DNA of 64,000 nucleotides from Christiangramia echinicola DSM 19838 (lineage in GTDB: Bacteria; Bacteroidota; Bacteroidia; Flavobacteriales; Flavobacteriaceae): assembly GCF_000423065.1 (NCBI RefSeq), contig NZ_AUHG01000011.1, positions 682,001 through 746,000 on the forward strand, written 5' to 3'. The notes under the pieces are model-generated. The model worked only from the letters and a program-made list of their open reading frames with translations. It ran no database searches and was not told where the DNA came from. Shown piece after piece: positions 3,740 to 13,020 of the stretch. Position numbers and translations under genes: made by a program. The stretch's first letter is position 1, and each line of letters starts with the position of its first letter.

Positions 3740-3811
3740 ATGATTACAGCAGTTCAGAACATTATCGCATCAATTATTGAGGTCCTTTTCGTTTTCGAAA
3801 ATCGACCCTGA
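3740..3811 (+). CDS. Putative ilv leader peptide (Ile/Val/Leu-rich, 23 residues)
   Basis: A mini-ORF with an ATG start and TGA stop encodes 23 residues, of which nine are the end products of the downstream operon: Ile at 2, 8, 9, 12 and 13, Val at 5, 15 and 18, Leu at 16. A strong terminator starts 28 bases after its stop, 190 bases before ilvD. This is the arrangement of ribosome-mediated attenuators of ilv operons in Proteobacteria. The reading frame and composition are visible; translation and function are inferred. Confidence 0.7.
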   Translation: MITAVQNIIASIIEVLFVFENRP

Positions 3812-3868
3812 GAGATGTGCGTTCTATTCATTATAAATCAAAGCCATCTTTATAGATGGCTTTTTTTA
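3811..3868 (+). promoter_or_regulatory. Candidate ilv attenuator: alternative antiterminator and terminator hairpins
   Basis: The terminator is a perfect 10-bp stem, 3840-3849 with 3854-3863 (loop TTAT), followed by a T-rich run. Its left arm can instead pair upstream: AGAGATG-GC at 3811-3820 pairs with GCCATCTTT at 3843-3851 (nine pairs, one G-T, one bulged T3818). The antiterminator strand begins on the last base of the leader stop codon, so a ribosome at the stop would cover it and allow termination, while one stalled earlier on Ile/Val/Leu codons would leave it free. Pairings were worked out by eye; no energies were calculated. Confidence 0.7.
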
Positions 3869-9481: not shown

Positions 9482-10755
9482 TGGATACACTGCTGGAAAA
9501 AGATAAAATATACAAACCAACCCACGAAGCCGTTAAACAGGCTGCTGAAAGAATTTCCAAAGTGGTTTTAAAAACACCATTGGCTGAATCTTTTACTTAT
9601 AGCAAGAAGTTTGAAGCCAATGTAATGCTGAAAAGAGAAGACCTGCAACAGGTTCGATCTTATAAGATTCGCGGTGCGTATAATAAGATTTCCAGCTTGC
9701 CCAAAGATCAGCTTGAAAAAGGAGTGATCTGTGCCAGCGCCGGGAATCATGCGCAGGGTGTCGCTTTTGCCTGCAATAAACTGAAGGTTAAGGGAGTGAT
9801 CTATATGCCCGGTACCACTCCAAAACAAAAGGTGGAACAAACCGAAATGTTTGGTGGTGAATGGGTAGAGGTCGTTCTGAAAGGCGATACCTATGACGAT
9901 TCTTTTAAGAGTGCCATGAAGCAAATGCATGAGCAGGGTCTTGTATTTATTCATCCATTCGATGATGAAAAAGTAATAGAAGGCCAGGCGACCATCGCTT
10001 TGGAAATTCTCGAGCAGGCTGATGCCCCAATAGATTATATTTTCGCTCCCCTTGGTGGTGGCGGATTGCTTGCAGGGGTTTCTTCTATGTTTAAAGAGTT
10101 GTCACCGAATACAAAAATTATAGGGATTGAGCCCGCTGGGGCACCTTCTATGAAAACTTCCCTCAAGGAAGGAAAGGTAATAGAATTGGCTAATATCGAA
10201 AGATTTGTGGACGGAGCGTCAGTTCAGAAAGTGGGATCCAGAAATTTCGCGATCTGTAAAGAGAATCTGGATGAAATGATCACCGTTCCTGAAGGTAAAA
10301 TATGCCAGACCATTCTTGATCTTTATAACCAGGATGCTATGGTGGTAGAACCGGCAGGAGCCATGGCAATCTCAGCGCTGGATCTTTATGCGGAAAAGAT
10401 CAAAGGCAAGAACGTGGTCTGTATCGTTAGTGGCAGTAATAATGATATCATCAGGATGGCAGAGATAAAGGAAAGAGCTCTGCTTTATTCAGGATTGAAA
10501 CATTATTTCGTGGTTGTTTTTCCGCAGAGAGCAGGAGCATTAAAGGAATTTGTCGCTAAGGTGTTGGGACCTAATGATGATATTACCCATTTTGAATACT
10601 CAAAAAAGCACAATCGGTCTAATGGACCAGCAGTTGTCGGGATTGAATTAAAAGATCCGAAAGACTTCGGACCGCTTGTAGACAGGATGAAAAAAAGAAA
10701 TTTTTATGGTGAATATCTGAATGATAATCCAAATTTATTTCAATTTTTGATCTAG
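9481..10755 (+). CDS. ilvA: Threonine dehydratase (threonine deaminase)
   Basis: The 424-residue PLP enzyme makes 2-oxobutyrate from threonine, the committing step of isoleucine synthesis. The PLP lysine lies in YKIRGAYNK, the phosphate loop in GGGGLLAG, and SASAGNHAQGVAFA is the substrate loop. The C-terminal region (from about 335, HYFVVVFPQRAGALKEFV) is one ACT-like regulatory domain, the shorter Bacillus-type arrangement. It is the last gene of the ilv operon; its presence fits biosynthetic rather than catabolic use. Confidence 0.95.
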   Translation: MDTLLEKDKIYKPTHEAVKQAAERISKVVLKTPLAESFTYSKKFEANVMLKREDLQQVRSYKIRGAYNKISSLPKDQLEKGVICASAGNHAQGVAFACNKLKVKGVIYMPGTTPKQKVEQTEMFGGEWVEVVLKGDTYDDSFKSAMKQMHEQGLVFIHPFDDEKVIEGQATIALEILEQADAPIDYIFAPLGGGGLLAGVSSMFKELSPNTKIIGIEPAGAPSMKTSLKEGKVIELANIERFVDGASVQKVGSRNFAICKENLDEMITVPEGKICQTILDLYNQDAMVVEPAGAMAISALDLYAEKIKGKNVVCIVSGSNNDIIRMAEIKERALLYSGLKHYFVVVFPQRAGALKEFVAKVLGPNDDITHFEYSKKHNRSNGPAVVGIELKDPKDFGPLVDRMKKRNFYGEYLNDNPNLFQFLI

Positions 10756-10782
10756 TAAATGCCTGTAAACTAAAAATTTGTA

Positions 10783-10790
10783 TACATTTG
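10783..10790 (+). promoter_or_regulatory. Candidate -7 promoter element before the arginine leader
   Basis: TACATTTG matches the Bacteroidota sigma factor -7 consensus TAnnTTTG. It lies only four bases before the ATG of the first Arg-rich mini-ORF, so transcription from it would give an almost leaderless mini-ORF message, perhaps starting at the second ATG (10798). I see no convincing -33 TTTG at the usual spacing. Read-through from ilvA remains possible. Confidence 0.4.
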
Positions 10791-10794
10791 TAAC

Positions 10795-10854
10795 ATGATG
10801 TCTATCAAACAGATAATATTACCCCGTTTCAATTTCAGGCCCCGCCGCTTCTAG
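10795..10854 (+). CDS. Putative arginine leader peptide 1 (19 residues)
   Basis: A mini-ORF, ATG ATG ... TAG, encodes MMSIKQIILPRFNFRPRRF, with four Arg among the last nine residues (codons CGT, AGG, CGC, CGC). It follows the ilvA stop by 39 bases and precedes the arginine gene cluster. CGTTTC in its codons 11-12 (10825-10830) can pair with GAAACG at 10865-10870, which is followed by ATTTTCT. A role as arginine-sensing leader peptide is inference from composition and position. Confidence 0.5.
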   Translation: MMSIKQIILPRFNFRPRRF

Positions 10855-10877
10855 GCAGTGACCCGAAACGATTTTCT
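10825..10877 (+). promoter_or_regulatory. Long-range hairpin spanning the end of arginine leader 1
   Basis: CGTTTC at 10825-10830 and GAAACG at 10865-10870 are perfectly complementary, with a small inner GCC/GGC pairing at 10844-10846 and 10854-10856, and ATTTTCT directly after the right arm. The left arm lies inside the Arg-rich mini-ORF and would be opened by a translating ribosome. The right arm can also pair with an identical CGTTTC inside leader 2 (10976-10981). This could be a terminator or an antiterminator switch; it is weaker than the ilv case. Confidence 0.35.
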
Positions 10878-10966
10878 ATTAATATTATTTGATTTTTTCC
10901 ATTTTGACTTACTTAAACAGCATAGAATACAAACTTAATATCAGCACATTTTCTGATATTTCTCTT

Positions 10967-10996
10967 ATGCGCCGCCGTTTCCCCCGTCGCACGTAA
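10967..10996 (+). CDS. Putative arginine leader peptide 2 (9 residues)
   Basis: ATG CGC CGC CGT TTC CCC CGT CGC ACG TAA encodes MRRRFPRRT, five Arg in nine residues, all by CGC or CGT. The frame could extend upstream to TTG at 10904 (30 residues in total), but the ATG form is the simplest. The stop codon lies in the loop of a small perfect hairpin, CGCAC-GTAA-GTGCG (10988-11001). It starts 122 bases before the candidate argA gene. It would be hard to explain as chance in this AT-rich genome, but function is unproven. Confidence 0.55.
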   Translation: MRRRFPRRT

Positions 10997-11088
10997 GTGC
11001 GTCTATATATTTATGGAACTTAGGTGAGTCCGGTTCCGCTCTCGAAAACCCAAATCAAAATATTTTTTTCAACATAAATTTTTAGCAG

Positions 11089-11730
11089 ATGAAAATTGTC
11101 ATTGCTAATAAATCTCATGCTTCTTATGCTGAGATCATTTGTAATACTATAGAAGAGTCGGCGAAAGTCCGTGGGACAGGTATTGCCCGCAGGACACCAG
11201 ATTACATCATTAATAAGATGGAAAAGGGAAATGCCGTGATCGCTCTTGATGGTGAAAAGTTCGCCGGATTCTGTTATATAGAAACCTGGAGCCATGATAA
11301 ATATGTGGCCAATTCCGGACTTATAGTTCATCCCGATTACAGAAATCAGGGCCTCGCCAAGGATATAAAGGAGGTCATCTTTAAACACTCCAGAACAAAA
11401 TATCCGGAGGCGAAGATTTTTGGGATCACTACAGGTCTTGCTGTTATGAAGATCAATTACGATCTTGGATATCAGCCCGTAACTTTTTCTGAACTTACCG
11501 ATGATGAATCTTTCTGGAAAGGTTGTCAGACCTGCAAGAATTACGACGTCCTAACCAGAACAGAACACAAGATGTGTTTATGTACGGGGATGATGTATGA
11601 TCCTGAAAAAAAGAAAGAAACCAAGAAACCCGAAAAGCCTAAAAGTAAGTTTAACGATAAGGCATTTCAAAGATTAAAGCATATAAAACAAACGCTTTTT
11701 TATAAAAAGGAAAAAGCAGAGAATAAATAA
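11089..11730 (+). CDS. GNAT-family acyltransferase, candidate first enzyme of arginine synthesis
   Basis: The 213-residue protein has a GNAT core (residues 1-140, acetyl-CoA loop in VHPDYRNQGLAKDIKEVI), a Cys cluster (CQTCKNY...CLCTGMMYD), and a Lys-rich tail from about 168. It is the first gene after the Arg-rich leaders and before argG, and no classical argA or argJ is visible in the cluster although argB, argC, argD, argF' and argE are. It is therefore the best candidate for N-acylation of glutamate, with acetyl- or succinyl-CoA as donor. That role rests on context; the fold call is firm. Confidence 0.75.
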   Translation: MKIVIANKSHASYAEIICNTIEESAKVRGTGIARRTPDYIINKMEKGNAVIALDGEKFAGFCYIETWSHDKYVANSGLIVHPDYRNQGLAKDIKEVIFKHSRTKYPEAKIFGITTGLAVMKINYDLGYQPVTFSELTDDESFWKGCQTCKNYDVLTRTEHKMCLCTGMMYDPEKKKETKKPEKPKSKFNDKAFQRLKHIKQTLFYKKEKAENK

Positions 11731-11832: not shown

Positions 11833-13020
11833 ATGAAAAAAATAGTTATAGCATACAGCGGAGGATTGGATACCTCATACTGCGCGAAATATTTATCTGA
11901 AGAAGAAGGATTTGAAGTTCACGCGGTGAGTGTGAATACCGGAGGTTTTTCAGAAGAAGAAATTCAAAAGATAGGAGATAACGCTAAAAAGATCGGAGCC
12001 AGCAGTTATAAGAATATCGATGCGATCTCCTCTTTTTATCAGAAAGTGGTAAAATATCTCATCTTCGGAAATGTGCTGAAGAACGATACCTATCCATTAT
12101 CGGTAAGTGCGGAAAGAATAATCCAGGCGATAGAAATAGTAAATTATGCTAAGAAAGTCGGTGCAGGATATATCGCTCATGGAAGTACCGGTGCCGGAAA
12201 CGACCAGGTGAGATTTGATATGATCTTCCAGATCATTGCTCCTGAAATTAAGATCATAACCCCAATAAGAGATAAACAACTTTCAAGACAGGAAGAGATC
12301 GAGTACCTTAAAAGTAAAGACGTTGAGATGAACTGGGAAAAAGCCAAATATTCGGTGAATAAAGGTCTTTGGGGAACCAGTGTTGGAGGAGCGGAAACTC
12401 TGACTTCAGAAAAAGCATTACCGGAAGAAGCCTATCCATCGCAACTAAAGGATAAGAAACAAAAGCAAGTCAAACTAAGCTTTACAAAAGGCGAATTGAC
12501 TGCGATCGATGGGAAGGAAAATGTACCGGAAAAGAATATCGAAATTCTCGAAGGGATTGCTTCAAAATATGCCATTGGCAGAGATATTCACGTTGGGGAT
12601 ACTATTATTGGAATTAAAGGTAGAGTAGGATTTGAAGCCGCTGCCGCATTGATCACGATCAAAGCACATCATTTACTGGAAAAGCATACTTTGAGTAAAT
12701 GGCAACTTCAGCATAAAGATTATACCTCCAATTGGTATGGAATGCATTTGCATGAAGGTCTATACCTTGATCCAGTGATGCGTGATTTTGAGGCTCAATT
12801 GGAAAGTTCCCAGGGCAAGGTTACCGGAGATGTGTTTGTTACGCTTCATCCTTATAGATTCACTTTAGACGGAATAAAGTCTCCAAACGATCTCATGAAC
12901 AGCAGTTTTGGGAATTATGGCGAAGAGAACAAAGCCTGGACTGCCGATGATGCGAAAGGATTTATTAAGATACTTTCAAATTCAGGGAAAATCTATCAAC
13001 ATGTAAATCAGGATTCATGA
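11833..13020 (+). CDS. argG: Argininosuccinate synthase
   Basis: The 395-residue enzyme ligates citrulline and aspartate using ATP. The N-terminal PP-loop IAYSGGLDTSYCAKYL and the motif YIAHGSTGAGNDQVRFD are diagnostic. Its last four bases overlap the argC start (ATGA), so it is translationally coupled to argC. It sits 16 bases downstream of a palindromic repeat. Confidence 0.97.
   Translation: MKKIVIAYSGGLDTSYCAKYLSEEEGFEVHAVSVNTGGFSEEEIQKIGDNAKKIGASSYKNIDAISSFYQKVVKYLIFGNVLKNDTYPLSVSAERIIQAIEIVNYAKKVGAGYIAHGSTGAGNDQVRFDMIFQIIAPEIKIITPIRDKQLSRQEEIEYLKSKDVEMNWEKAKYSVNKGLWGTSVGGAETLTSEKALPEEAYPSQLKDKKQKQVKLSFTKGELTAIDGKENVPEKNIEILEGIASKYAIGRDIHVGDTIIGIKGRVGFEAAAALITIKAHHLLEKHTLSKWQLQHKDYTSNWYGMHLHEGLYLDPVMRDFEAQLESSQGKVTGDVFVTLHPYRFTLDGIKSPNDLMNSSFGNYGEENKAWTADDAKGFIKILSNSGKIYQHVNQDS

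Follow-up and report, generated by a model that had tools for sequence, protein, structure and literature searches.

The arginine biosynthesis genes of Christiangramia echinicola DSM 19838 are preceded by a leader region that encodes two short arginine-rich peptides and contains two RNA hairpins, here termed P1 and P2. From sequence comparison we consider it likely, with a probability of roughly 0.68, that this region mediates ribosome-dependent attenuation of the arginine operon by sensing charged tRNA-Arg, with P1 as a ribosome-gated stop signal. The arginine genes would probably be turned on once ribosomes stall because arginine runs short. All coordinates given below refer to the analysed stretch of 64,000 nucleotides, the window.

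The leader is located in the 333-bp gap between ilvA and a gene for a GNAT acetyltransferase (10756–11088), which holds both arginine-rich stretches. The GNAT protein (gene at 11089–11730, plus strand), recognized by its Pfam match, is a candidate N-acetylglutamate synthase and may take the role of ArgA. It is followed by argG for argininosuccinate synthase (11833–13020, plus strand), which is the next gene on the same strand in 159 of 160 loci with enough downstream DNA (the exception being L205; L028 and L243 offered no room downstream and were left out, and the locus sets overlap). In a genome of only 600 kb, a GNAT-like stretch and ArgG share a single frame (locus L183, 295–2082, minus strand), a fusion that supports a role of the GNAT protein in arginine synthesis. 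Frames of comparable length (591–630), which may be similar fusions, cover the GNAT match in further genomes from the family of L183, in G282 and in G413. The C-terminal tail of the GNAT protein (window positions 11500–11727) appears rich in cysteine and lysine by eye, and a contact with metal or RNA is conceivable for it. Relatives were taken from family, order, phylum and genus samples that overlap, such that some organisms occur in more than one set. The family sample comprised 149 Flavobacteriaceae genomes, one per genus, and the GNAT gene was present in 98 of these, in 54 of 119 genomes of the order survey, in 83 of 198 of the phylum survey and in all 24 genus members. A further set consisted of 66 named loci, the nearest of which stem from Christiangramia (Gramella).

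An earlier note, made from the DNA sequence of the window alone, had pointed to two tandem mini-ORFs in this gap, and both are present where it placed them, MMSIKQIILPRFNFRPRRF with its stop codon at 10795–10854 and MRRRFPRRT with its stop codon at 10967–10996. The first, ORF1 (plus strand), has a counterpart with at least two arginines in all 24 genus members, some of which start with a non-ATG codon. Outside the genus, sequence comparison indicates that ORF1 is not general, as a single rule detected it in 42 of the 98 family genera, including a few doubtful cases. The second was drawn too short: the arginine-rich MRRRFPRRT forms the C-terminal part of a longer frame, ORF2 (10904–10996, plus strand; leader peptide (M)TYLNSIEYKLNISTFSDISLMRRRFPRRT), which opens with a putative TTG start at 10904, contains the ATG at 10967 as an internal codon and is open in all 24 genus members. 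Frame and TTG start are kept in every one of them, the window included, with the TTG at positions -178 to -187, and in other genera an ATG, GTG or TTG is found near the matching place. ORF2 is probably 31 codons long including the stop, not 9 to 10. When differences between 23 aligned ORF2 sequences were counted by codon position, 1607, 1145 and 2231 were obtained for positions 1, 2 and 3, respectively (the counts are summed over pairs and therefore not independent). The corresponding pattern of ORF1 is weak (986, 694 and 1039), as expected if the ORF1 DNA also serves pairing. Loss or frameshifting of the ORFs in relatives with the same gene order, which the note had named as evidence against its proposal, was not seen in the genus, where they are kept in frame in all 24 members. 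Both arginine-rich mini-ORFs are real and, judging from relatives, appear to be coding and widely conserved.

The codon usage is also as described in that note. Nine of the 28 codons in the two mini-ORFs specify arginine (five CGC, three CGT and one AGG) and eight of them are thus CGC or CGT, whereas the 130 arginine codons in 13 window genes favor AGA (AGA 62, AGG 29, CGT 18, CGA 12, CGC 6, CGG 3). In the family, ORFs with at least four arginines in eight codons (98 loci) contain 258 CGC, 153 CGT, 28 AGG, 27 AGA, 15 CGA and five CGG codons. When an ORF within 400 nt of the GNAT gene was counted as arginine-rich if it had at least three, four or five arginines in eight codons, such ORFs preceded the GNAT gene in 94, 71 and 29 of the 98 genera, whereas 20 dinucleotide shuffles gave 18.1, 1.65 and 0 on average; the enrichment in codons for the end product by which trp and his leaders are recognized is therefore present. 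On the reverse strand, the same count gave 41, 23 and 8 of 98. Four loci contain no arginine-rich ORF (L075, L156, L190 and L191), and two of these, L075 and L190, match the P1-P2 model described below. The layout varies between genera, with either two leaders or a single longer one that often ends in RRRP-stop, and other lineages have arginine-rich leaders as well, ending for example in RIPRRR-stop in another family and in DGETFRVRR-stop in the Bacteroidales.

Several further features were observed in these leaders. An inverted repeat, ATATCAG/CTGATAT, lies inside ORF2 just before the internal ATG (window positions 10938–10959), and similar repeats were seen by inspection at the matching place in some relatives. 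Loci from other lineages (L208–L220 and L060–L065) have arginine-rich leaders of their own and different downstream hairpins. In genus g128, which we take to be Flavobacterium, a different, strongly conserved and arginine-poor leader, MNKISLHITSLSRTN.P.TSPEVR.L, follows a TACTTTTG box in all seven loci inspected (L156, L164, L165, L167, L206, L207 and L211, at about -330 to -240); none of the nine g128 genomes in the phylum survey matched P1-P2.

Upstream of ORF1, TACATTTG (10783–10790, plus strand) matches the Bacteroidota -7 box TAnnTTTG and would put the transcription start at 10795. As this box occupies positions -12 to -5 according to passages of a study on Flavobacterium psychrophilum (PMC9723704), ORF1 of the window is predicted to be leaderless, with the first base of its ATG as +1. 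Leaderless mRNAs made up 5.5% of those examined in F. psychrophilum in the same passages (PMC9723704). Among the 82 family loci with an ATG-started leader, 30 have a TAnnTTTG that ends 0–12 nt upstream of the first leader ATG, mostly at 4 or 7 nt, and an exact box within 40 nt is absent in 49; at random positions the frequency is 1.9%.

A stretch within ORF1, arm A (CAGATAATATTA, 10810–10821, plus strand), can pair with arm B (TAATATTATTTG, 10880–10891, plus strand), which ends 12 nt before the ORF2 start codon. In the window fold this A:B stem has a z value of -1.8, with 9 of 200 shuffles as good. Across genera, the duplex energy of a leader's own arms was below that of swapped arms in 35 of 42 genera, a few of which probably contributed frames that are no leaders (Wilcoxon p 8e-8, with no correction for relatedness). 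A control segment located more downstream gave -10.7 versus -10.2. An earlier test on 60 loci yielded a z below -1.5 in only 25. The pairing that the earlier note had proposed is a different one. The motif CGTTTC does occur in both mini-ORFs (10825–10830 and 10976–10981), and the single GAAACG that was thought to switch between them is present at 10865–10870, but GAAACG faces CGTTTC in both ORFs in only 2 of the 24 genus members. The stretch after ORF1 has a 6-nt complementarity to ORF1 in 23 of 24 members of the genus and to the end of ORF2 in 3 of 24. The more general idea of that note, control of the arginine genes by an arginine leader peptide, gains from the ORFs with arginine codons before the arginine cluster, in frame in 24 of 24 genus members, and from the absence of an ArgR match in all 149 family genomes; its switch is not conserved, and the conserved structures, P1, P2 and the A:B stem, were not named in it.

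Hairpin P1 (CGCAC-GUAA-GUGCG, 10988–11001, plus strand) was identified by folding, by a terminator rule and in relatives. Its 5' arm together with one loop base constitutes the last two sense codons of ORF2, and the stop codon forms the rest of the loop. Base counts characterize the segment between P1 and P2 (11002–11014, plus strand) as a U-rich tail. P1 is the only terminator-like site in the region 10700–11150 (one versus 0.2 in shuffles), and it passes the same simple terminator rule in 64 of 148 distinct relatives, compared with 5–8 when sequences were shuffled, and fails in 84. The stem is short (5 bp) and the tail is U-rich rather than a run of U. The pairing probability of P1 is 0.86 in the full-length window fold and exceeds 0.5 in short local folds of 73 of 84 loci. 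P1 shows less variation than P2: one of the five pairs has changed on both sides (CG to AU), the outermost pair fails in 25 of 90 cases, and the loop is GUAA in 85 of 148, varying in the others.

Hairpin P2 (GGAAC-UUA-GG-UGAGU-CC-GGUUCC, 11015–11037, plus strand) consists of a stem of six pairs, a bulge with A as its last base, a GG/CC element and a UGNGU loop. The A-GG-UGNGU-CC loop is nearly invariant and the stem covaries: all six stem pairs and one of the two upper pairs have changed on both sides. In the model-fitted alignment A3 (91 matches from 98 loci, 90 distinct rows), 96.4% of the cells pair, 78 cells of the whole structure have changed on both sides compared with 16.8 in shuffles (all 500 were lower), and the covariation score is 0.275 versus 0.123 in shuffles and at most 0.076 in slid controls, figures that are biased toward the P1-P2 model to which A3 was fitted. 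That model, R1, was built from 30 sequences sharing one bulge type, four of 34 listed having been dropped. The MAFFT alignment A2 (30 sequences) gave a covariation score of 0.199 versus 0.124, with a slide of +1 reaching 0.119, and three pairs changed on both sides versus 1.7, a value that 87 of 500 shuffles equaled or exceeded. RNAalifold recovered only four pairs from A1, an initial MAFFT alignment comprising 116 of the 148 distinct sequences, a poor result that we attribute to misalignment of the varying P2 bulge. In folding calculations, P2 forms in the short local fold, with an inner pair above 0.5 in 65 of 84 loci; it does not form in folds of 10960–11050 or of the whole window leader (probability 0.0003), and in the latter the P2 loop is engaged with the start of ORF2.

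In the window, 10906–10916 at the ORF2 start and 11020–11030 in the P2 loop can form 11 pairs. We treat this pairing as not conserved because, across 84 loci, the P2 loop paired no better with its own upstream 100 nt (-7.49) than with shuffled sequence (-7.76), the own value being lower in 34 of 84. An antiterminator that would exclude the terminator, as known from trp and his leaders, was found neither by this loop pairing test nor by inspection, which revealed no complementarity between the P1 3' arm and the P2 5' arm. A third ORF within P2 (ATGGAACTTAGGTGA) was rejected as it is not kept in relatives by inspection. Within its own genome, the P2 motif is present once without a mismatch; occurrence at other operons was dismissed, as the 12 further matches all have two mismatches and the total of 13 compares with 11 in a reversed control. 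A search of 10200–11400 with Rfam covariance models at E values up to 1 returned only SCARNA7, a snoRNA, below its cut-off, and P1-P2 fits no Rfam family, be it T-box, riboswitch, Flavo-1 or others. In L175 and L195, from a sister family of the same order, a different second hairpin was seen around ATGGTTACGTACCAT.

When the family sample was searched with the P1-P2 model, 90 of 149 genomes matched, once each, and 89 of these matches lie 41–244 nt (median 49) before the GNAT gene on the same strand. The match was absent in nine genomes with the GNAT gene at that threshold and in 7 of 98 in a permissive locus search. The 90th match lies elsewhere: in G084, leaders and P1-P2 precede an ORF of 194 codons (L262, 1154–1738) that replaces the GNAT gene, has neither a Pfam match nor blastp similarity to the GNAT protein, and is followed by argG, a semialdehyde dehydrogenase gene read as argC and a class-III aminotransferase gene read as argD. 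In the phylum survey, P1-P2 was detected in 10 of 198 genomes, all of them Flavobacteriaceae, with strict filters that can lose weak matches. On these comparisons, P1-P2 looks like a family trait, while arginine-rich leaders are spread more widely.

Bacterial arginine synthesis is a textbook case of control by ArgR. Such control acts on the same target genes, but through a DNA-binding repressor, and ArgR (PF01316) had no match in the genome studied here (0 of 1) or in any of the 149 family genomes, in a search that detected it in 9 of 14 control genomes. Across the phylum survey, ArgR was found in 73 of 198 genomes, only two of which also have the GNAT gene, and both are doubtful: G185, a member of the Flavobacteriaceae, scored 26.9 bits, and G287 has weak hits. 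These weak hits are five equal ArgR-domain matches located in frames of 127 codons, which may represent a repeated element. The split between ArgR and the GNAT gene follows kinship and is therefore not an independent test.

Attenuation could proceed as follows. Transcription would start at the ATG of ORF1. When arginine is plentiful, ribosomes would traverse both ORFs, terminate within the P1 loop and dissociate. P1 and its U-rich tail would then form, and most polymerases would stop or be lost before reaching the GNAT-argG operon. When charged tRNA-Arg is short, a ribosome held on the arginine codons of ORF2 would cover the 5' arm of P1, and as P1 could then not form, transcription would go on. 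ORF1 might act as a first gate, since a ribosome at its first arginine codon would cover arm A and free arm B, which would favor ORF2 translation. P2 may set the efficiency of the system by being recognized or by inducing a pause. The arginine-replete state depends on timing, because a ribosome at the ORF2 stop codon also covers P1.

We base this reading on the arginine-rich ORFs, the frame and start of ORF2, the linkage of P1-P2 to the GNAT gene, the covariation, the terminator rule passed by P1, the A:B pairing, the absence of an ArgR match, the leader kept in G084 without the GNAT gene, and the leader-peptide arrangement of the neighboring ilv operon described below. Against it stand the weakness of P1, the lack of an antiterminator, the absence of P2 from the full-length fold, seven genera with the GNAT gene but no P1-P2, the weak first A:B test, and the comparison with the ilv genes next door, the terminator of which looks far stronger than P1. 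There, an ILV-rich leader peptide (MITAVQNIIASIIEVLFVFENRP, 3740–3811) and an intrinsic terminator (3840–3863) precede ilvD (4058), which makes leader-peptide attenuation probable elsewhere in this genome; this type of leader peptide plus terminator was seen in 6 of 20 fetched loci, 12 of which showed the expected ilvD N-terminus.

Three other mechanisms have to be weighed, and they differ from ribosome-gated termination at P1 in the output, in the sensor or in the signal. The main rival for the output, judging from the analysis as a whole, is that Rho-dependent termination or mRNA decay is governed by the position of the ribosome on the arginine codons, as for speF of Salmonella, and that P1 and P2 are related to Rho or an RNase rather than being an intrinsic terminator. 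We consider this rather unlikely: P1 is indeed a weak terminator, with no other detected in the vicinity of the gene, and consecutive arginine codons act together with Rho and RNase G in the described part of the speF system (PMC6386406), but P1 plus U-rich tail satisfies the terminator rule roughly ten times as often as shuffled sequences do. The main sensor could instead be P2 (with P1), acting as an RNA that binds a protein or a ligand, for instance as an arginine aptamer or an autoregulatory site for a protein of the operon, with the peptides only tuning the response. Its near-invariant loop on a covarying stem is the pattern of a recognized hairpin, and the mismatch-free motif occurs once in the genome; however, P1-P2 was matched only in Flavobacteriaceae (10 of 198, with strict filters) whereas arginine-rich leaders occur in other families too, and P2 persists in G084 despite the loss of the GNAT gene, which together make a P2 sensor improbable.

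That the peptides arrest ribosomes by sensing free arginine or ornithine in the exit tunnel, in the manner of TnaC or SpeFL, instead of reporting charged tRNA, appears very unlikely. Many leaders do end in RRP-stop, but the proline follows from hairpin P1, the window ends in RRT-stop and Salegentibacter in RRTLVRV-stop with the hairpin kept in both, and other residues vary widely. Chance occurrence of arginine codons in a short gap, finally, is scarcely worth entertaining: short ORFs do arise by chance, and the reverse strand reaches 41 of 98 at the loosest threshold, but comparison refutes this explanation through conservation, frame, covariation and gene linkage.

Ribosome-mediated transcription attenuators of the trp, his and ilv type have a leader peptide enriched in codons for the operon's end product. 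The arginine leader resembles them in this respect and in a hairpin with a U-rich tail before the first gene, and differs in having two tandem leaders, in having arginine as its amino acid, in the extra conserved hairpin P2, and in a candidate terminator arm that consists of the leader's own last codons without a detectable antiterminator. We do not class it as a trp-type attenuator because the stem is short, the tail lacks a run of U and the search for an antiterminator was negative. It is a tentative and, in our estimate, doubtful proposal that a two-stage ribosome sensor constitutes a new RNA regulatory class, distinct from trp-like attenuation. According to this proposal, the phylum would largely split into carriers of ArgR and carriers of the leader-bearing operon, the sensor controlling the second group; a leaderless first leader would gate a second one, the last arginine codons of which are the terminator arm; and the family-specific P2 would signal, as part of the nascent RNA, to RNA polymerase or to a dedicated factor. 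For translational attenuation of the ErmC type, in which a hairpin hides the start site of the controlled gene, no sign was found in the window fold of this one genome, in which the last 31 nt before the GNAT gene are unpaired.

Arginine-sensing leaders have been described elsewhere, in the published passages considered here never before arginine synthesis genes. In Salmonella, consecutive arginine codons in the upstream ORF orf34 of speF sense arginine; this single upstream ORF, as opposed to two in the window, controls an ornithine decarboxylase via Rho, RNase G and masking of the ribosome-binding site in the parts of the report cited (PMC6386406). The leader peptide rbfL of Staphylococcus aureus likewise senses arginine shortage by slow arginine codons, but as far as described in the passages cited it has eight residues with AGA/AGG codons, blocks the ribosome-binding site of a biofilm regulator and lowers expression upon arginine shortage (PMC13009471). 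Closer relatives offer hints: passages on F. psychrophilum, a member of the Flavobacteriaceae, report clues for leader-peptide attenuation before amino-acid operons, and those in the main text name no arginine operon, although the supplement could (PMC9723704), and short ORFs in long 5' UTRs of Bacteroides thetaiotaomicron were described, in the part cited, as reminiscent of leader peptides (PMC7366714). Searches of an open-access library yielded no paper describing arginine leader peptides ahead of arginine biosynthesis operons in bacteria.

None of the 149 sampled genera has an ArgR match, and 90 of them instead contain a covarying RNA in a single copy, which in 89 genera directly precedes GNAT-argG. 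The leader suggests how these bacteria sense arginine, and it contains an RNA motif without a match in Rfam.
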